From positions 316,234 through 380,233 of the forward strand of contig NZ_KI391971.1 in the NCBI RefSeq assembly GCF_000162475.2: a stretch of DNA of 64,000 bases, read 5' to 3'. This document shows, one piece after another, positions 93 through 43,036 of the stretch; the stretch's first letter is position 1, and the number at the start of each line of letters is the position of its first letter. The DNA comes from Granulicatella elegans ATCC 700633. GTDB lineage: Bacteria > Bacillota > Bacilli > Lactobacillales > Aerococcaceae. The notes below the pieces were generated by a model. It saw only the letters and a list, made by a program, of their open reading frames with translations, was not told where the DNA came from and made no database searches. Made by a program: the position numbers and the translations under genes.

Positions 93-1826
93 TTGAAGAC
101 ATTATGGAAATATGCTAGTTATTATAAAAAAGAAAGTTTGCTAGCACCTTTATTTAAATTATTAGAAGCTAGTTTTGAACTATTTGTGCCATTAGTGATG
201 GCTCAATTAATGGATGTTGGAATTGCTCAAAATCGCCCGTCCTATATTCTAACGATGTGCGGTTTGTTAATGATTCTTGCAATTATTGGTTTAGTTGTTT
301 CGATTACTGCGCAGTATTTTGCTGCTAAATCAGCAACTGGCTTTGCTAAGAAATTACGCTATGCTTTATTAGAAAAAATCACGGTAATGAATTTTTCAAC
401 CATTGATCAACTTGGGACGGATTCACTTATTACAAAAATGACAAGTGATATTCAACAAGTTCAAACAGGTTGGAATTTATTTTTACGCTTATTACTTCGC
501 TCACCTTTTGTAGTGTTAGGGGCAATGATAATGGCGTTTATTGTAAATGTACAAGCAGCTTGGGTATTTGTTGTGACGATTCCTGTTTTAGCGATCATTA
601 TTTATGCTATTTTATTAAAAACAATTCCTTTATTTACAAAAGTACAAGAAGGAATGGATCGTATCACTCAAAAAACAATGGAAAATTTAACAGGAGTGAG
701 AGTTCTTCGTGCGTTTAATCGAGTAGAAATCGAACAACATACCTTTCAAACTGAAACAGATACATTAGCGAATCAACAAAAATTCGTCAGTAATCTATCG
801 AGTTTAACCAATCCGATTACAATGATTATTATTAATATTGCGATTATTGTGTTATTACAGTTAGGAGCGGTACAAATTGATACAGGAATCTTAACAAAGG
901 GAGAAGTGATAGCCTTAGTAAATTATATGTCGCAAATTTTGTTAGAGCTTATTAAATTAGCGAATCTAACGATTCAAGTGACACGTTCCATTGCAAGTGC
1001 TAAGAGAATTGAAGCGATATTGACGATTGAACAACCTAATGAGTTTGCAGAAGTAATGGGTAACTTATCTTCAACAGAAGAGACAGATATTGTACTTTCA
1101 TTTGAAAATGTTTCTCTGAAATATGAAGGAGATAGTCATGAAGTATTAGAAAACTTAACGTTCTCTCTAAAAAAAGGGGAAACTTTAGGCATTATTGGTG
1201 GAACAGGAAGTGGGAAAACTTCACTGATTTCATTGATTCCTAAATTTTATCTTCCAACGAGTGGAACAATTCGTATAAATGGGCAATCCATAGAAAAGAT
1301 TCCAACAGAAGAATTAAGGCAGAAAATAGGGATTGTTCCACAAAAGGCAGTTTTATTTAGAGGAACGATTGCTGAAAATTTAAGATGGGGAAATGCAGAT
1401 GCTACAACTCAAGAATTATATGAAGCATTAGAAATTGCCCAAGCAAAAGAAATGGTTGAACAAAAACCAAATCAATTAGAGTATGTATTGGAACAAGAAG
1501 GAAGAAATCTATCCGGTGGACAAAAACAACGCTTAACGATTGCGCGAGCTATCGTTAGAAAGCCAGAGATTTTAATATTAGATGATAGTTCTTCTGCTTT
1601 AGATTATGCAACGGATTCAGCCTTAAGAAAAGCCATTTCAAAAGCGCCGTTTAAACCAACAACTATTATTGTCTCTCAAAGAGCGGCTTCAGTGATGCAA
1701 GCTCATCAAATCATTGTGATGGAAAAAGGAAAAATCGTGGGAATTGGAACTCATGAAGAGTTACTAGAAACAAATGCGATTTATCAAGAAATAACTGCCT
1801 CACAATTTCAAAAGGAGGAACAGTAG
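93..1826 (+). CDS. heterodimeric ABC exporter, subunit with degenerate Walker B (EfrA/LmrC-like)
   Basis: Half-transporter of 577 aa with an N-terminal six-helix export domain (about 1-300) and a C-terminal nucleotide-binding domain. Walker A is GGTGSGKT, the signature is LSGGQ, and Walker B reads ILILDDSSSALD, so Asp replaces the catalytic Glu. That is the hallmark of the non-hydrolysing site in heterodimeric exporters such as TM287/288, LmrCD and EfrAB. The start is TTG at 93, placed by the SD AGGAGT about 7 bases upstream. The gene is followed after 1 base by its partner, so they are translationally coupled. Drug or lipid efflux is inferred from the family; the substrate is unknown. Confidence 0.88.
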   Translation: MKTLWKYASYYKKESLLAPLFKLLEASFELFVPLVMAQLMDVGIAQNRPSYILTMCGLLMILAIIGLVVSITAQYFAAKSATGFAKKLRYALLEKITVMNFSTIDQLGTDSLITKMTSDIQQVQTGWNLFLRLLLRSPFVVLGAMIMAFIVNVQAAWVFVVTIPVLAIIIYAILLKTIPLFTKVQEGMDRITQKTMENLTGVRVLRAFNRVEIEQHTFQTETDTLANQQKFVSNLSSLTNPITMIIINIAIIVLLQLGAVQIDTGILTKGEVIALVNYMSQILLELIKLANLTIQVTRSIASAKRIEAILTIEQPNEFAEVMGNLSSTEETDIVLSFENVSLKYEGDSHEVLENLTFSLKKGETLGIIGGTGSGKTSLISLIPKFYLPTSGTIRINGQSIEKIPTEELRQKIGIVPQKAVLFRGTIAENLRWGNADATTQELYEALEIAQAKEMVEQKPNQLEYVLEQEGRNLSGGQKQRLTIARAIVRKPEILILDDSSSALDYATDSALRKAISKAPFKPTTIIVSQRAASVMQAHQIIVMEKGKIVGIGTHEELLETNAIYQEITASQFQKEEQ

Positions 1827-33614: not shown

Positions 33615-33654
33615 ATATTCCATAGAATAAAAGCATTGCACAAGAGGAGTAATA

Positions 33655-33863
33655 CGAATTTTAGTTGATAGAGAGAGAAGGGTTGGTGAAACTTCTTAAC
33701 AAATTTGTATGAAGGTAGCTTGTAAGTTGGCTAGGGGAATCATAGTAACTTAGCTCGGAGTAGACTTCGTTAACAACGTTAAAGGCATCAGTTATGATGC
33801 GAATATTAGGTGGTACCACGAAAATAATCGTCCTATGAAGTGAATTCTTCATAGGATTTTTTT
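33655..33863 (+). promoter_or_regulatory. T-box riboswitch leader of valS
   Basis: The leader contains the T-box sequence TTAGGTGGTACCACG (33806-33820), which pairs with uncharged tRNA acceptor ends, and a terminator TCCTATGAAG-TGAATT-CTTCATAGGA with T7 (33831-33863) competing with the antiterminator. The upstream 130 bases form stem I; I did not assign the specifier codon with certainty, but the downstream gene implies tRNA-Val. Transcription of valS would rise when charged tRNA-Val is scarce. Confidence 0.9.
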
Positions 33864-33899: not shown

Positions 33900-36545
33900 A
33901 TGGCAAAAGAAATGTCACCAAAGTTTCAACCACAAGAAGTTGAAGCAGGAAAATATCAATGGTGGGTTGAATCAGGAGTCTTCCATCCAAACGAAGATCC
34001 AAATGCAGAACCTTATTCAATCGTTATCCCACCACCAAATGTAACAGGTAAATTACATTTAGGACATGCGTGGGACGTTACATTACAAGATATGATTATT
34101 CGTCAAAAACGTATGCAAGGGTACGATACATTATGGTTACCAGGTATGGACCATGCCGGAATTGCGACTCAAGCAAAAGTAGAAGAAAAATTACGTGGAG
34201 AAGGTTTATCTCGTTATGACCTTGGACGTGAAAAATTCTTAGAACAAACATGGGAATGGAAAGAAGAATATGCAAGCCATATCCGTGAACAATGGGCAAA
34301 AATGGGAATCTCTGTAGACTATCGTCGTGAACGTTTCACATTAGACCAAGGCTTATCAGATGCTGTTAAAAAAGTATTCGTAACATTATATGAAAAAGGC
34401 TTGATTTACCGTGGAGAATACATTATTAACTGGGATCCAAAAGCAAAAACTTCATTATCAGATATCGAAGTTATTCATAAAGATGTAGAAGGTGCTTTCT
34501 ACCATATGAATTATCCATTAGCAGATGGAAGTGGAGTATTAGAAGTTGCAACGACTCGTCCTGAAACGCTACTTGGAGATACTGCTGTTGCAGTTCACCC
34601 TGAAGATGAACGTTATCAAGCATTGATTGGAAAAACAGTTATCTTACCATTAGTTGGAAAAGAAATTCCAATTATTGCTGATGAGTATGTTGAACAAGAT
34701 TTTGGAACAGGGGTTGTAAAAATTACACCTGCTCATGATCCAAATGACTTTGAGGTAGGTAATCGTCATAATTTACCACGTGTAAATGTGATGAATGATG
34801 ATGCAACGATGAATGAATTAGCTGGAAAATACGAAGGTATGAATCGTTTTGCAGCTCGTAAAGCTATTGTTAAAGATTTAGAAGAAGCAGGTCTTCTTGT
34901 AAAAATCGAAAAACATGTTCACAGTGTGGGACATTCTGAACGTACAGATGTTGTTGTAGAACCTCGTTTATCAAAACAATGGTTTGTTAAAATGGGACCT
35001 TTAGCAGAACAAGCAATTCAAGCACAACGTGCAGAAGAAGACAATACGGTTAATTTCTATCCACCACGTTTTAATGATGCTTACTTACGTTGGATGGAAA
35101 ATATTCATGACTGGGTAATTTCTCGTCAATTATGGTGGGGACATCAAATTCCAGCATGGTATCATAATGAAACAGGTGAAGTATACGTTGGAATGGAAGC
35201 TCCAGCAGATGCAGAAAACTGGACACAAGATGTGGATGTATTAGATACATGGTTCTCATCTGCATTATGGCCATTTTCAACAATGGGTTGGCCAGATGTT
35301 GAAGCTAGCGACTATAAACGTTACTATCCAACAAGTACACTTGTAACAGGTTATGATATTTTAACATTCTGGGTAAGTCGTATGATGTTCCAAGGATTAG
35401 AATTTACTGGCAAACGTCCATTTAAAAATGTATTAATTCACGGATTAATTCGTGATAGCCAAGGACGTAAAATGAGTAAATCTCTTGGTAATGGTGTAGA
35501 TCCAATGGAAGTTATCGAACAATACGGAGCAGATGCATTACGTTGGTTCTTAGCAAATGGTTCAGCACCTGGACAAGACGTTCGTTATTCAACTGATAAA
35601 ATGGATGCTGCATGGAACTTTATCAATAAAATTTGGAATGCTAGTCGTTATGCATTAATGAATATTGGTGATTTAACAGTGGATCAATTAGATATCACTG
35701 GTGAAAAAACATTAGCAGACAAATGGATTTTAACTCGCTTAAATCAAGTCATTGCTAAAGTAACAGAATTATTCGAAAAATTTGAATTTGGTGAAGCGGG
35801 TCGTCTATTATATCGTTTCATTTGGGATGATTTCTGCGACTGGTATATTGAAATGTCTAAAGAAACATTAGCAGGAAATGATGAAGCTGCTAAATTAACA
35901 ACTCGTAGTATTTTAGTGTATGTATTAGATCAAACATTACGTTTATTACATCCAATTATGCCATTCGTAACAGAAGAAATTTGGCAATCAGTTCCTCATA
36001 TTGGAGATTCATTAGTAGTTGCTTCATATCCAGTTGTACAAGAAAGTCAAATGGATGAAGTAGCAGCAGAAAAAATGGAATTCTTAATGGACTTTATTCG
36101 TTCCGTTCGTACAAGCAGAAATGAAATGAATACACCATTATCTAAACCAATTGCAATTGTTGCCAAAACTTCAAGCGCAGATATTCAAGCTATTTTATCA
36201 GAAAATGAAAGCTATATTGCTCGTTTCTGTAATCCTGAATCATTTGAATATGGTTTAGAAGTAGAAGCACCAAGCCACGCTGTAACAAGTGTGATTAGTG
36301 GAGCTGAAATTTATTTACCATTAGCAGGATTAATTAATATTGATGATGAAATTGCTCGTTTAGAAAAAGAAGCGGCTAAATTACAAGATGAAGTGAATCG
36401 TGTAGAGAAAAAATTATCAAATGAAAAATTCGTTGCGAAAGCACCAGAAGCTGTTGTAGAAGCAGAACGTGCCAAAGGTAAAGAATACGCTGATCAACGT
36501 CAAGCAGTTCTAGAACGTATTGCAACATTAAAAACATTAGCATAA
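33900..36545 (+). CDS. valS: valyl-tRNA synthetase
   Basis: 881 aa, class I synthetase. HIGH motif as [15 protein letters not shown] near 46, KMSKS near 525 ([11 protein letters not shown]), editing domain with [13 protein letters not shown], and a C-terminal coiled coil (about 815-880) typical of ValRS. ATG with SD AAGGAGG. Controlled by the T-box just upstream. In many Bacillota folC follows directly; here mobile elements separate them. Confidence 0.97.
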
Positions 36546-36617: not shown

Positions 36618-37372
36618 GTGACTTTCAGTCCGTCACGCTCCGTAGGTGCGTGACAAATAAACCACCCGCTATGCGGGTGCGCATCAAAGGTTATACCAAA
36701 AAAAACTCCAATCGCGATACAATAAAGGTGTTCAAGCCTATCATATAGCGAGAGGAGAAAAAATATGGCTGAAAAAGCTAATAGTTTATCACATACAAAA
36801 TGGATGTGTAAATACCACATTGTTTTTACACCTAAGTATAGACGGAAAGTTATCTATAATCAATATAGGAAAAGTTTGGGAGAAATATTTCGTCGATTGT
36901 GTAGTTATAAAGGGGTAGAGATTATAGAAGGACATCTTATGCCGGATCATGTTCATATGTTGGTAAGTATTCCACCAAGGATAAGTATTTCAAGTTTTAT
37001 GGGGTATTTAAAAGGAAAAAGCGCACTAATGATGTTTGATAAACACGCAAATTTAAAATATAAATTTGGGAACCGTCATTTTTGGGCAGAAGGTTATTAT
37101 GTAAGTACAGTAGGACTCAATGAAGCTACCATAAGAAAGTATATACAAGAACAAGAAAAACATGATATAGCAATCGATAAATTAAGTGTAAAAGAGTATG
37201 AGGATCCCTTCAGGGATGATGGTAAGTAATACAAACGCCTCTTTAAGAGGCAAGTGACGAGTCAAAAGCAATAAGGCTTGAACAAAGTGAAAGCCAGCGT
37301 CTTGAGGCGCTGGCTTGTAATCTGGGCTTATAGCCCCGGTTCAAACCACCCGTTAGACGGGTGGTCATGATT
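36618..37372 (+). mobile_element. IS200-type insertion sequence
   Basis: About 0.75 kb with one transposase gene. Ends carry hairpins instead of inverted repeats: left GTCACGC/GCGTGAC (36632-36654) and CACCCGC-TAT-GCGGGTG (36663-36679), right ACCACCCGT-TAG-ACGGGTGGT (37345-37365). Exact cleavage sites cannot be set from one copy. Confidence 0.75.
36765..37229 (+). CDS. tnpA: IS200-family Y1 transposase TnpA
   Basis: 154-aa HUH single-strand transposase. HUH motif in MPDHVHMLVS (near 65) and the catalytic Tyr in TIRKYIQEQEKH (near 128). The start GCTGAAAAAGCTAATAGT region is typical; ATG with SD GAGAGGAG. It moves as single-stranded DNA between the terminal hairpins. Full length and apparently intact. 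No TnpB accompanies it, so IS200 rather than IS605 type. Confidence 0.93.
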   Translation: MAEKANSLSHTKWMCKYHIVFTPKYRRKVIYNQYRKSLGEIFRRLCSYKGVEIIEGHLMPDHVHMLVSIPPRISISSFMGYLKGKSALMMFDKHANLKYKFGNRHFWAEGYYVSTVGLNEATIRKYIQEQEKHDIAIDKLSVKEYEDPFRDDGK

Positions 37373-37374
37373 TG

Positions 37375-39058
37375 GGCTCATCGACAAATTCTGTTGGTGG
37401 ATCAAATTTAACACCAAATTAAGTCTTTAATTTTTAATAATAAGGTGAGAGAAACTGAAATATTTAGTCTATTGATGAATCCACCACAAACATAACTATG
37501 AATGAAATCTAGTTTTAACTTTATAATGAGCAGGGGCATGTTATCCGCGATTAGCGGTTTGGGGGCTGTGAAATTTGATATTATTTTTCGCTTCCCCCAA
37601 TTCAACATGCCCATGGAGGCTCATTGTCAAGTTAAAACGACTCTATACAACCTCTCTTAAATCATAATGATTTTCTATTGACCGGGGTAAAGAAACACCC
37701 TTTGATAATCTTAATTCTTAATTTCATATTCTCAAAATTTCGATATCCATATGCCACACGTTTAATCACTTTAATGAAATTATTCGTTCCTTCAATAGCT
37801 CCATTGGAATATCCTGTCATAAATACTTGATAAATCCCATCCTTAAAGCGTTTGAATACTTCAAACTTCTTCTTAAATTCATAAGGTAATTGTTTTGGAA
37901 TCTGTTTTATACATGTCATAAATACCTCATAATCTTTCTTCTTGTAGGCTTTTCTAAGTTCTTGAATGAAATCATATGCGTCTGATAACACTTCATCAAA
38001 ACTCAATAGTTTTTCCACTAATTGTGCTTGGGTGAGATGCGTTTTAAAGTGATAGTTATAGCGTAGCTTTTCTTCATCCAATTCTTCACTTGGTTTTAAC
38101 AGTAGTTTCCAGTAACGTTTTAATGTCTTCTGTTGTGTTGATTTAGCAGAGAATTGCTTCATAATTACAACTCGAAGTTGATTAAAATTACGATTCATAT
38201 GTTGGACAATATGGAATCGATCTACTACGATAACAGCGTTTGGAAATACTGCTTTAATAAGGTTTTGATAAGAAGCATTCATATCCATCACTAAATATTT
38301 TACTTTTAAACGTTGTTTACGGGAGAACTTCATAAAGAAAGAAATCAATTCATGAAGTGTTCTACCAGGTAAAATATCAATTAATTGGTGATTTTCTCCA
38401 TCTAAACAAATGAAATTCATTTTCCCTTCTTGCGTTTTAACGCCTCTAAATTCATCTAAACAAAGCACTTTAGGTAAATAGTTATATCGTTGCATTGTTT
38501 TTATTTTAAACTTTTTCATCACTCTTTCGACTGTCTTGTCAGAAATTGAAAGAAGTTTGGCAATTGTTTTTCTAGAAAAGTTTTCTTTTAAGTACAACAT
38601 AATTTGGCACGCTAAATCATAAGAAATATTACTATTTTTGGGAACAAGAGGGCAATCTGTAACCCAAGTTTTACGACAATCTTTACAGATAAATCGTTGT
38701 ACTTTTAATTCTAAAAGAGTTTTATTCCCGTATAGATGTGGAATTCTAATTTTATGTTCCATTGGAGAATGTTTAATGACATTTTTACTAGAACAATATG
38801 GACAAGAAGTACAAGTATTTGTCCAAGTTCCTTTAACTTTATGAACAATTTCGTGGTTTTCTGTCACCGTTTCTAACCAATTTTCATCCGCAATAAAATT
38901 TTTTTCTGTTAATCCTAGTAATTTTCGTATACAATAGTCCATGAGAGAAATCCTCCTTTGATTGGTTTTGGTCGACTTAATCATAACCTGGATTTCTCTT
39001 TTTTTCATATAAAAAATCCTGTCGGTGATTTCTCACCAACAGGATTTGTCGAACAACC
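37375..39058 (-). mobile_element. ISL3-family insertion sequence
   Basis: Terminal inverted repeats GGCTCATCGACAAATTCTGT.. (37375-37399) and the complement of GGTTGTTCGACAAATCCTGT.. (39034-39058) agree at 21 of 25 positions. Contains one transposase gene on the minus strand. It abuts the IS200 element on the left and folC on the right. Confidence 0.8.
37662..38942 (-). CDS. ISL3-family DDE transposase
   Basis: 426 aa from the ATG at 38942 (SD AAGGAGGA; the longer frame starts inside the IS end). N-terminal zinc finger (CTSCPYC ... CKDC, residues 43-92), HTH (SISDKTVERVMKKF), and the DDE core with LCLDEFRGVK, VMDMNASY, VVDRFHIVQHMN and the final NGAIEGTNNFIKVIKR. Looks intact. Confidence 0.92.
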   Translation of the reverse strand: MDYCIRKLLGLTEKNFIADENWLETVTENHEIVHKVKGTWTNTCTSCPYCSSKNVIKHSPMEHKIRIPHLYGNKTLLELKVQRFICKDCRKTWVTDCPLVPKNSNISYDLACQIMLYLKENFSRKTIAKLLSISDKTVERVMKKFKIKTMQRYNYLPKVLCLDEFRGVKTQEGKMNFICLDGENHQLIDILPGRTLHELISFFMKFSRKQRLKVKYLVMDMNASYQNLIKAVFPNAVIVVDRFHIVQHMNRNFNQLRVVIMKQFSAKSTQQKTLKRYWKLLLKPSEELDEEKLRYNYHFKTHLTQAQLVEKLLSFDEVLSDAYDFIQELRKAYKKKDYEVFMTCIKQIPKQLPYEFKKKFEVFKRFKDGIYQVFMTGYSNGAIEGTNNFIKVIKRVAYGYRNFENMKLRIKIIKGCFFTPVNRKSL

Positions 39059-40458: not shown

Positions 40459-41145
40459 ATGGAAATGGATCAACAATTATTAGAATTGCCATTAGAATCT
40501 ATGCCAAGGGAGAGATTAGAAAAATTAGGAGCTAAAAGTTTAGAAACTTATGAATTATTAGCAATTTTGCTTCGGACAGGATCCAGAGAATTAAATGTAT
40601 TGCAATTATCGAAAGTTGTGTTGAATACGTTTGAAGATTTATTTACATTAAAAATGGCAACAGTAGAAGAATTAATGGCGATTCATGGAATTGGACGAAC
40701 AAAAGCTATTGAATTAAAAGCTGCAATGGAATTGGGAATTCGATTAGGAACAGCGAAGCAAACAAAATTAGGACATATTACAAGCTCGCAAAAAGCAGGA
40801 GAATGTATTATGGAAGAATTGAAAGATTTATACCAAGAACATTTAATTGCATTATTTTTAAATTCAAAAAATGAAGTTATTAAGAAAAAAATTATTTTTC
40901 GAGGAGGACTGAATCAAGCAGTCGTTCATCCAAGAGAAATTTTTAGAGAAGCGGTTCGTTTTTCTGCAGCAAGAATCATTATCGGACATAATCATCCAAG
41001 TGGAAATGTTACTCCGTCTCAAGCTGATATTGATTTTACAAGACGATTATCAGAATGTGGAGAAATGATGGGAATTGAATTGTTAGATCATTTTATTGTG
41101 GGGGATCATACCTATTGCTCTTTAAAGGAAGAGGGGTATTTCTAA
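40459..41145 (+). CDS. radC: RadC family protein (JAMM/MPN domain)
   Basis: 228 aa. N-terminal HhH-like region (MAIHGIGRTKAIELKAA) and a C-terminal JAMM metal site with HNHPSGNVTPSQADIDFT. Despite its name a DNA-repair role is doubtful in the literature; in streptococci it is competence-induced. ATG with SD AAGGGGG. Confidence 0.93.
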   Translation: MEMDQQLLELPLESMPRERLEKLGAKSLETYELLAILLRTGSRELNVLQLSKVVLNTFEDLFTLKMATVEELMAIHGIGRTKAIELKAAMELGIRLGTAKQTKLGHITSSQKAGECIMEELKDLYQEHLIALFLNSKNEVIKKKIIFRGGLNQAVVHPREIFREAVRFSAARIIIGHNHPSGNVTPSQADIDFTRRLSECGEMMGIELLDHFIVGDHTYCSLKEEGYF

Positions 41146-41327
41146 AGAGGGATATTTAATTTGAAATTCTTAGATTTAAAAGGTTAAAGTTTTATCAAAA
41201 AAGTCAAATTAAAATTTACTACTTACATAAGATAGATTTCATTTATTTTTACTATTGTGATAATTTCTATAATACTTCCCACAATAGTTAACAAGTTTTG
41301 CTACACTTTATGTGGGAGGATTGGATA

Positions 41328-41696
41328 ATGAAAGTTGAGAGGTATATTAAAGAATTATTAGGTATAGTTAGTGAAGTCCAGAATATTAAGTATTCAAAAA
41401 CTAATCTTGAAAAACATTTAATTAAAAGAAACCATATAGATGTTTTAAAATATTTTGATAAGATAGAAGAAATTATAAATAATCCAGATTATGTAGGAAT
41501 GAATCCAAATGAAAAATCTGAGAGTATAGAGTATGTAAAGATTTTTGAAGATAATGTTTTAGTAGCATTAAAAATTCATGGTTCTAAGGATTTTTATTAT
41601 ATACCTAGTATGTATACAATAACAGATTATAAATTGCAATCCCGATTATTTAGTGGGAGACTGAAAAAAGTTGACAATAAAAATAATAAGCCGTAA
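41328..41696 (+). CDS. small protein resembling PBECR-type nuclease-fold domains
   Basis: 122 aa from ATG 41328 (SD GGGAGGAT); the longer frame lacks an SD. The pattern YFDKIEEIINNPDYVG...EYVKIFEDNVLVALKIH...FYYIPSMYTI resembles phage-associated barnase/EndoU/colicin/RelE-like (PBECR) domains in its hydrophobic spacing and the NPD turn. This is a pattern impression, not an alignment. It may be a toxin-like RNase or a phage remnant. The end of the gene overlaps the promoter of the downstream ncRNA. No partner gene seen. Confidence 0.5.
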   Translation: MKVERYIKELLGIVSEVQNIKYSKTNLEKHLIKRNHIDVLKYFDKIEEIINNPDYVGMNPNEKSESIEYVKIFEDNVLVALKIHGSKDFYYIPSMYTITDYKLQSRLFSGRLKKVDNKNNKP

Positions 41697-41699
41697 AAT
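41671..41699 (+). promoter_or_regulatory. promoter of the structured ncRNA
   Basis: TTGACA (41671-41676), exactly 17 bases, TAAAAT (41694-41699), lying in the last codons of the upstream gene. Predicted start near 41706. Confidence 0.7.
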
Positions 41700-41705
41700 A
41701 CAGAT

Positions 41706-41838
41706 AACAAGTATTATTCTTTGAGGGCAGAAAGGGTTCCTGCCGCACCTTATTGAGGTACCTGAGATGCTGGATACACCGACCAGCCAAGGAATAATCG
41801 TAAATCTGTTGAAGAGTCAAGTTCGCTTGGCTCTTTTT
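41706..41838 (+). ncRNA. free-standing structured ncRNA of unknown family
   Basis: About 133 nt between a near-consensus promoter and an intrinsic terminator (AGAGTCAAG-TTCG-CTTGGCTCT, T5; 41813-41838). The 5' part folds as a multibranch: closing stem ATTATTCTTTG/CAAGGAATAAT, then arms GGCAG/CTGCC, ACCT/AGGT and GCTGG/CCAGC. It does not match T-box, TPP, SAM, FMN, purine, glycine, SRP, tmRNA or 6S signatures I know. ddl has its own promoter after the terminator, so this is probably a separate RNA rather than a ddl leader. Confidence 0.65.
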
Positions 41839-41875
41839 ATATTTTCTGAAGGTGTTTTTGCAAAATGTGAGTACC

Positions 41876-41904
41876 TTGTCAGTTTATAGTGCATTTGATA
41901 TACT
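41876..41904 (+). promoter_or_regulatory. ddl promoter
   Basis: TTGTCA (41876-41881), 17-bp spacer, TATACT (41899-41904), 58 bases before the ATG. Confidence 0.65.
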
Positions 41905-41962
41905 AGTGTATGAACTATGAAAGAAGTATCTAGATAAGATAGTTCTAGTTGGAGGATTGTTT

Positions 41963-43036
41963 ATGAAAATTATAGTCGTTTATGGAGGCAAAAGTGCTGA
42001 ACATGATATTTCAATTTTAACGGCTTTTTCAATTATTAAAGAAATCTATTTTGATTATTATGAAGTTCAACCAGTCTATATTAATCGAAAAGGAGAATGG
42101 CTGAAAGGTGAACCATTAACAGGTCCTGTAGCTTTTTCTGAAGCATTAAGATTAGAAGTAAGTCAAGAAGCTCACTTTGCAACAAGTGAAGGAGAAGTTT
42201 CGACAGGTGTACTTGTAACTCCTTATGATTTAAAAGAAGAGGAATGTGTGGTTTTCCCAGTATTACATGGACCTAATGGGGAAGATGGAACCATTCAAGG
42301 ATTGTTTGAAATGATGGATGTTCCTTACGTTGGATGTGGCGTATTGGCAAGCGCTTGTGGAATGGATAAAATTACAAGCAAACAATTATTCCAACAAGCA
42401 GGATTACCACAATTACCATATGTACCATTTAATAAAACTCAATGGAAACAAAATCCTGAAAGTATTTTTAATAAAATTGAAGGTACATTAATTTACCCAG
42501 TATTTGTTAAACCAGCTAATATGGGATCAAGTGTAGGAATTTCAAAAGCAGAAAATCGTGAAGAACTAACCACTGCAATTGTTGAGGCTTTGAAATATGA
42601 TCGTAGAATTGTAGTAGAACAAGGAATTGAAGCAAGAGAAATTGAATGTGCGGTTCTAGGAAATGATGAAGCGAATACTTCTGTTGTAGGTGAAATTGTA
42701 AAAACAAGTGGATTTTATGACTACAATGAAAAATATATTAATAATACTGTCACCTTAGAAATTCCAGCGCAAATTTCAGATGAAGTTTCTGCCAAAGTAA
42801 GAGAATATTCTGCAAAAGCATTCCGTGCCATTGATGGTAGTGGGTTAACAAGATGTGATTTCTTCTTAACGGAAACAAATGATATTTACATTAATGAAGT
42901 AAATACTTTACCAGGATTTACTCAATTTAGTATGTATCCACTTCTATGGGAAAAAACAGGAATTTCTTATAAAGATTTAGTTGAAGAATTAATTCAATTA
43001 GCTTTAAAACGTTATAAAGATCGACAAAATGGATAA
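41963..43036 (+). CDS. ddl: D-alanine--D-alanine ligase
   Basis: 357 aa from ATG 41963 (SD GGAGGA). ATP-grasp fold: N-terminal VVYGGKSAEHDIS, VLHGPNGEDGTIQG, GLTRCDFFLTETNDIYINEVNTLPGFT at the C-terminus. Makes the D-Ala-D-Ala dipeptide for cell-wall precursors, which MurF (next gene) attaches. The FYDYNEKY loop carries Tyr at the position usually linked to D-Ala rather than D-Lac use, so vancomycin-type precursors are expected; this is inferred. Confidence 0.95.
   Translation: MKIIVVYGGKSAEHDISILTAFSIIKEIYFDYYEVQPVYINRKGEWLKGEPLTGPVAFSEALRLEVSQEAHFATSEGEVSTGVLVTPYDLKEEECVVFPVLHGPNGEDGTIQGLFEMMDVPYVGCGVLASACGMDKITSKQLFQQAGLPQLPYVPFNKTQWKQNPESIFNKIEGTLIYPVFVKPANMGSSVGISKAENREELTTAIVEALKYDRRIVVEQGIEAREIECAVLGNDEANTSVVGEIVKTSGFYDYNEKYINNTVTLEIPAQISDEVSAKVREYSAKAFRAIDGSGLTRCDFFLTETNDIYINEVNTLPGFTQFSMYPLLWEKTGISYKDLVEELIQLALKRYKDRQNG

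Follow-up and report, generated by a model that had tools for sequence, protein, structure and literature searches.

The skipping-rope RNA motif was reportedly discovered by Weinberg in 2017. In Rfam the family (RF02924) is classed merely as an sRNA gene, and it has a known loop-loop pseudoknot according to the legend of figure 3 of the Rfam 14 paper. Searchable papers, a set outside which most subscription papers lie, gave no function for it.

The closest described systems are those in which a toxin is held in check by an RNA. These include the type III modules ToxIN, CptIN and TenpIN (PMC5086642) and the prophage toxin AbiF, whose RNA neutralizes it by direct binding (PMC12373285); for both, the description here follows the accessible part of the source. 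On the protein side, the accessible parts of two further papers describe PBECR domains as predicted phage RNases that occur solo or fused to MuF and have a His and Thr/Ser active site (PMC5512222, PMC5576092). For MuF toxins, phage delivery and the need for an immunity protein have been proposed in the available text of the latter (PMC5576092).

Here we analyze a locus of Granulicatella elegans ATCC 700633 that lies in a 64,000-nucleotide stretch of DNA, hereafter the window. It carries a skipping-rope RNA just downstream of a solo PBECR3 gene, and those related RNAs elsewhere that have a partner stand either behind such solo genes (the solo type) or behind phage head-protein genes that end in PBECR2 (the head-protein type). 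The reading that we prefer, with a probability of about 0.72, is that PBECR3 and the skipping-rope RNA form a toxin/RNA-antitoxin module that probably came from phages.

The RNA gene and its promoter and terminator

A preliminary description of the window had proposed a free-standing RNA gene of about 133 nt, and the promoter, the four-helix RNA and the terminator are indeed all present. The promoter (TTGACA-17-TAAAAT; 41671-41699, forward strand) scores 11/12, the highest of the 21 promoter-like sites in 40500-43000, where shuffled sequences have a mean of 12.7. The intrinsic terminator (41811-41836, forward strand) is the sole site returned by the terminator search in the same interval, against a shuffle mean of 0.6. 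Since shuffles also yield such sites, a promoter or a terminator taken alone is weak evidence. The promoter arrangement is, in addition, common to many relatives: a promoter-like pair scoring at least 10/12 is found within 60 bases upstream at 58% of the 97 RNA places whose upstream sequence is long enough, near-duplicates being numerous among these, versus 1.9% of base shuffles. The -35 box in the window lies inside the last codons of ORF 41328-41696, a feature absent from the preliminary description. At other solo loci it often falls within the toxin's last codons as well, and at head-protein loci it appears as TTTACA near the gene end.

The RNA had been thought to match no family that could be named, and this is refuted by the Rfam search, which gave a confident match to a known family. 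The core of the RNA (41716-41795, forward strand) is a skipping-rope RNA, RF02924, with 73.3 bits against a gathering score of 36.7, and the covariance model is matched over its full length (model positions 1-80). A search of its own genome found a single copy of the RNA.

The gene ddl, which lies beyond the RNA, has a separate promoter candidate at 41876-41904 (forward strand; promoter search, 10/12 with TG), as had been proposed; it is a neighbor outside the module. The RNA had also been suggested to be a small regulatory or ligand-sensing one near cell-wall genes, and it does stand upstream of ddl in the window and in one congener. However, the RNA ends in its own terminator, among six congeners with ddl it is near that gene in G001 only, so that five have ddl without the RNA, and elsewhere the RNA sits in prophages. 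No evidence of ligand sensing was found. Riboswitch control of ddl was therefore rejected, and we leave a sensing or regulatory tie to ddl and cell-wall synthesis practically no chance.

Further upstream in the window, a T-box leader (33627-33838, 130.5 bits) lies just ahead of an 881-aa ORF (33900-36545), presumably a valyl-tRNA synthetase gene by resemblance. The ORFs at 36765-37229 and 37662-39008 are taken by us to resemble IS200/IS605 and ISL3-type transposases; with such ORFs nearby, this stretch of the chromosome appears to take up mobile elements.

The structure of the RNA

The multibranched fold with four helices that had been claimed was recovered: with an energy of -39.9 kcal/mol (z = -2.76; 3/200 shuffles are as stable), the 133-nt strand folds into a closing helix, three hairpins and the terminator hairpin. 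The structure also holds among relatives. In a MAFFT alignment of 23 RNAs, 91.7% of cells are paired versus 72.9% in shuffles, none of 500 of which reaches that level; 18 of the 26 pairs show double changes, that is, on both sides; and pairing falls to 30-44% when one side of a helix is slid by 1-3 columns. The skipping-rope structure is thus under selection.

All of its elements lie on the forward strand. The 5' side of the closing helix P1 (41716-41723) pairs with 41788-41795, double changes being present among relatives in 8/8 pairs; the 3' side is placed by the Rfam model match and covariation. Both also place hairpin 2 (41746-41764), in which C41746-G41764 closes an asymmetric bulge. Hairpin 1 (41726-41744) and hairpin 3 (41769-41787) are placed by covariation and a loop test: the loop GGU of the former (41735-41737) can kiss the loop ACC of the latter (41778-41780), and this complementarity corresponds to the pseudoknot of the family. 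Over 47 RNAs, the mean loop-loop complementarity score is 12.6 versus 8.7 with loops swapped between RNAs, and 0/1000 swaps score as high. The solo type forms 3-5 pairs in this contact, and the head-protein type mostly 5-7, with compensatory changes (CGUGGC/GCCACG, CGUACC/GGUACG, CGCCCC/GGGGCG); the exception in the latter type is the second RNA of L174, with 3 pairs.

The PBECR3 protein

The ORF at 41328-41696 (forward strand, 122 aa) ends 19 bases upstream of the RNA core, and its ATG is preceded by GGGAGG, which resembles a ribosome site. Its product belongs to PF18812, PBECR3 (E 3.5e-14; 53.1 bits, cut-off 30), and PBECR2 also scores above its cut-off (32.2 bits versus 27.1). The predicted active-site residues His30 and Ser94 are present. 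Among 43 relatives (22 solo and 21 head-protein), His30 is kept in 40, with tyrosine in the other 3, and Ser/Thr94 in all; the basic positions K/R71 and K/R82 are likewise each found in 43/43.

An AlphaFold (AF2) model of the protein has a mean pLDDT of 89.6 and a pTM of 0.84. In VIA-align, most of its best fold matches are to toxins from toxin-antitoxin systems (BrnT, RelE, YoeB and ParE types), and one is to a CdiA toxin; examples are 7vd7_A (Z 6.7, 4.0 Å over 88), BrnT 3u97 (Z 6.5, 3.5 Å over 75) and RelE 2kc8 (Z 5.0, 5.5 Å over 79). These Z values are middling (4 to 7, all below 8), so that they support the fold solely in combination with the family match. Foldseek returned no match to the model at E < 0.001, and PADLOC none for PBECR3. 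From family and fold model together, the protein is predicted to be a BECR-fold ribonuclease toxin.

Solo PBECR3 genes are paired with the RNA

In a sample of 395 genomes of the order, PF18812 occurs at 16 places, 15 of which are closely followed on the same strand by a full RNA. The sixteenth (G373) lies at a contig end that cuts the RNA off after its first 40-odd bases. A sample of 398 genomes of the phylum has PF18812 at 25 places, window included, the 25th row being a second piece of G703. Leaving the window aside, 13 of these are solo genes (ORFs of up to 200 aa) above cut-off, and 12 adjoin the RNA, 10 on the same strand and 2 in convergent orientation, both in G671. Broken or partial genes among the 12 are those of G703 (frameshifted) and G487 (93 aa) and the second one of G671 (85 aa). 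No RNA stands beside the solo PBECR3 gene of G710 (191 aa), which is above cut-off. The RNA is present at a 509-aa head-protein ORF of G617 and at 0/5 ORFs of more than 600 aa (G600, G641, G503, G537, G710). At the four places below cut-off, it lies beside the gene in G426 and G617 C8, 1.9 kb away in G766, and was not found in G732. With both samples pooled, the RNA accompanies 28/29 solo genes, one of them with a partial RNA at a contig end, versus 0/5 large ORFs (Fisher p 2e-5), as counted in many-genome searches whose stricter filters lose weak matches.

Other collections gave a similar picture. In the set genome_contigs, which covers partly the same genomes as the samples, 13/14 loci have the full RNA and one is a cut contig. 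In viral_contigs, the RNA is seen at 6/10 PBECR3 loci, the other four contigs ending at the toxin stop codon; among streptococcal phage records it is seen in 5/6, and the remaining one also ends at the stop codon. Because many loci are near-duplicates, independent cases are fewer than all of these counts. In streptococcal prophages, the pair of PBECR3 and RNA follows the lysin gene, near the attachment site. The steady partner of the skipping-rope RNA is the upstream PBECR3 nuclease gene and not ddl.

Both PBECR3 genes of G671 (L107/L133 and L128/L157) converge on an RNA of the opposite strand, the promoter of which consequently lies outside the toxin gene.

Sequence distances between toxins are correlated with those between their RNAs, both for 22 solo pairs (rho 0.37; 0/2000 permutations as high) and for all 43 pairs (rho 0.60; 0/1000), and shared descent could explain this. 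Since the RNA is encoded beside the toxin, it might instead pair with the toxin mRNA, in type I-like antisense or in cis control. Predicted duplexes in 20 loci speak against this, as those with the RNA's own toxin mRNA are no better than those with the mRNAs of other loci, at the 5' end of the mRNA (own -22.2 versus other -22.9 kcal/mol) or over the whole ORF (-36.2 versus -36.5 kcal/mol). With no preference for the own mRNA in these 20 loci, type I antisense was rejected, and we regard pairing with the toxin mRNA as highly improbable.

The head-protein form

Thirty viral loci encode a related PBECR domain, which at 25 of them lies within open frames of 413-876 aa. All 20 ORFs compared with Pfam (19 of these 25 and the ORF of G617) have Phage_Mu_F or the minor capsid protein domain Phage_min_cap2 in front and PBECR2 (PF18810) above cut-off at the end. 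PBECR3 is a weaker match than PBECR2 in 19 of the 20, and PBECR2 fits best. The RNA follows directly downstream in 28/30 viral loci, as detected by the model built here in 26 and by Rfam in L162 and L170. The gene of L169 is interrupted, with the RNA behind its detached 3' end, and in L189 the sequence ends inside the head-protein gene. Several loci are near-duplicates, so that there are fewer than 30 independent cases.

The gap between gene and RNA is 29-33 bases in 16 of the 21 loci examined and 5-43 overall. Two RNAs in a row are present in L174, L176 and L184. For the 21 head-protein pairs, toxin and RNA distances are uncorrelated (rho 0.11; 454/2000 permutations as high). In these loci the RNA occupies the place expected for the MuF immunity protein. 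In some of them, though inconsistently, a small ORF comes after the RNA at a distance of up to about 100 bases (L165 and L170, 122 aa; L166, 113 aa), and in the three loci named it may encode a protein partner.

RNAs without an adjacent toxin

The order sample contains 47 RNA places. PBECR3 stands directly upstream at 15 of them, and at 30 neither PBECR3 nor a head-protein gene was found. L064 has a Phage_Mu_F gene upstream, whose end matches no Pfam PBECR model and gives weak matches (21 and 24 bits) to PBECR profiles built here. L030, truncated by the end of its contig, is counted among the 31/47 places without an adjacent partner. The phylum sample has 32 RNA places, 30 of which were fetched and read: a PBECR3 or head-protein partner is present at 16 and none was seen at 16. 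These counts may miss some PBECR2 partners. With so many RNA places lacking an adjacent partner, the RNA may have other uses.

How such loci may arise is suggested by alignment with intact relatives. In the streptococcal loci L026, L031, L037 and L038, homology to the intact locus L033 is lost ahead of the toxin start and returns 45-53 bases short of the ORF end, and the RNA promoter and the RNA are kept. L010 shows the same pattern against the window, homology resuming about 30 bases before the ORF end. In L040 and L060, the match begins about 48 bases before the ORF end. These loci are read, from the alignments, as toxin deletions that spared the RNA promoter; a later insertion of the toxin is less likely.

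Orphan RNAs are also carried by S. mitis phages (L100, L101), by streptococcal satellite phages (L102, L104) and by Enterocloster phages of about 100 kb from sewage (L103, L105), which are probably virulent. The gene upstream of the RNA in the satellite phages has nothing above the NCBIfam cut-off and nothing in PADLOC, and plasmids gave no blastn match to the RNA. Solo toxins lacking the RNA are thus rare and RNAs lacking the toxin frequent, which is the pattern expected of an antidote: a toxin is hard to keep in its absence, while it can persist when the toxin is gone. This pattern also bears on the proposal that the RNA is a guide, sensor or activator of the nuclease: steady pairing with a structured RNA would look identical under that proposal, but an activator is not expected to outlive its enzyme so often, and the compared loci without the toxin keep the RNA. 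We consider such a role distinctly unlikely.

Several further arrangements were noted. In the satellite phage Javan99 (L104), the sRNA SpF41 (RF02435; 3851-3953) lies directly upstream of the skipping-rope RNA. In three genomes (L055, L056, L065), a second skipping-rope copy, of another subtype and on the other strand, lies 1.5-2 kb from the first, and L066 has two skipping-rope-like matches in tandem (1903-2083; 25.4 and 48.4 bits), possibly a tandem copy outside the head-protein group. An ORF in L136 (1159-1479), labeled nucleotidyltransferase-like by sight, ends 21 bases before the RNA, and a 101-aa ORF in L143 (1190-1495) ends 5 bases before it. These two ORFs and a GNAT gene at L043 are possibly other partners or chance neighbors.

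Unrelated toxins and a second RNA pairing

The RNA could also be an independent mobile-element RNA, for instance an anti-defense or phage-regulatory one, that shares a lysogenic-conversion slot with changing toxins. The orphans of the satellite and Enterocloster phages favor this, as do near-identical RNAs that follow unrelated toxins, TenpN-like at L028 and L042 and PBECR4 at L035 and L044. However, an independent RNA does not predict the near-constant presence of the RNA at both solo PBECR3 and head-protein PBECR2 in unrelated sites, among them the head-gene module and the chromosomal site studied here, nor its absence at the five large PBECR3 ORFs. On balance this explanation seems unlikely, and the toxin/RNA-antitoxin module remains the reading that we prefer.

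The four loci with unrelated toxins were the reason for considering TenpN-like proteins and PBECR4 as partners; the TenpIN match of L028 scores 75.2 bits, below the cut-off of 90. Both were rejected as specific partners, since the model built here found no skipping-rope RNA at 4 TenpN-like loci (L194-L197) or at 12 PBECR4 loci (L190-L193, L198-L205), one of which, L193, ends 3 bases after the PBECR4 match. TenpN-like genes are preceded by a conserved and apparently structured region (about 780-985, reverse strand, in L028; about 1330-1500 in L194) with promoter-like and terminator-like ends by eye; no tandem repeats (TRF) and no Rfam match were found in these regions.

For PBECR4, an Rfam scan of 13 loci revealed another RNA, Bacilli-1 (RF02931), upstream of the gene in 10 (L035, L044, L190-L192, L198-L202). 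The other three are Listeria phage A500 with rli62, a staphylococcal phage with no RNA match, and a locus with one borderline S808 match further off. In phage A500 (L203), the sRNA rli62 (RF01486; 1264-1394) precedes the PBECR4-like gp26. Among 79 genomes of the family of G304, 3/4 Bacilli-1 places are directly upstream of a solo PBECR4; Bacilli-1 lies beside none of the eight PBECR4 ORFs of more than 1000 aa in these genomes, and it is also absent at four shorter PBECR4 ORFs, of which G797 has two and G833 and G798 have one each. A Bacilli-1-PBECR4 module standing upstream of an orphan skipping-rope RNA would explain L035 and L044.

The pairing of Bacilli-1 with PBECR4 suggests a wider class, in which each BECR-fold nuclease of phages and prophages would be matched to a structured RNA family: skipping-rope to PBECR3 and head-protein PBECR2, Bacilli-1 to PBECR4 and possibly rli62 to the Listeria PBECR4. 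For head proteins, this would mean a nuclease that travels in the virion and an immunity factor that is an RNA and not a protein; satellite and large phages would have captured their toxin-free copies as antitoxin RNAs that let them escape such modules. We propose this class tentatively, at somewhat less than even odds.

Discussion

In the mechanism that we envisage, the toxin half would be PBECR3, a BECR-fold ribonuclease. The RNA would be made from its own strong promoter, usually within the 3' end of the toxin gene, and its closed body of three hairpins would be locked by the kissing contact of loops 1 and 3. As with type III RNA antitoxins, neutralization would most likely come about through binding of the RNA to the nuclease, whose RNA site it would block. 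In the head-protein form, a MuF or minor capsid protein has the nuclease as its tail, and the RNA would protect the producing cell; toxin-free copies in hosts, satellites and large phages may be retained or captured antidotes. The analysis itself establishes what the RNA is and how it is structured, the predicted fold and active-site residues of the protein, the constancy of the pairing and the one-sided loss, whereas the toxicity of the protein, an excess of the RNA, binding, neutralization and the direction of selection are inferred.

If true, a widespread RNA family for which the papers found give no function would gain one, and the range of RNA antitoxins would grow to include a toxin fold and a gene order unlike those of type III. 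It would also suggest that some toxins borne in phage heads are restrained by an RNA rather than by an immunity protein, and account for the retention of toxin-free RNAs by phages, satellites and hosts. The literature searched, outside which most subscription papers lie and some of which was available only in part, gave no link between skipping-rope and PBECR; papers on RNA antitoxins in the same literature likewise gave none, and no paper on "Bacilli-1 RNA" was found there.

As for known systems, the RNA of the window shares sequence, helices and the loop-loop pseudoknot with RF02924 and is a member of that family. The protein half is that of the PBECR domains, for which the accessible part of PMC5512222 suggests mRNA or CRISPR RNA targets and describes no RNA partner; for MuF polymorphic toxins, immunity proteins are expected and no RNA partner is described in the available part of PMC5576092. 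The AbiF system is alike in that a structured RNA motif, the abiF-motif RNA RCd22, turned out to act as an antitoxin against a prophage toxin, but its toxin and RNA are unrelated to those described here, and RCd22 lies upstream of the toxin and has two motifs (PMC12373285, accessible part).

Type III modules likewise have a small RNase-like toxin beside a pseudoknotted RNA, and the pseudo-ToxI of escape phages resembles the orphan phage RNAs (PMC5086642, accessible part). The kissing loops make the RNA described here a pseudoknotted one too, and by analogy it may bind and inhibit its toxin in the same manner. In contrast to type III, the toxin is PBECR3 and not ToxN; neither Pfam nor NCBIfam matched this protein to a ToxN family at E values of up to 1. 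Furthermore, the type III RNA stands upstream as an array of short repeats, with one promoter and a terminator between RNA and toxin, whereas here it stands downstream with its own promoter and usually in one copy, as in the window (two in L174, L176 and L184, and possibly in L066). The module would thus work like type III, but by the features tested it is no member, having another toxin fold and gene order. The skipping-rope RNA belongs to a known RNA family, the newly assigned function of which is most likely that of an RNA antitoxin of BECR-fold phage nucleases.
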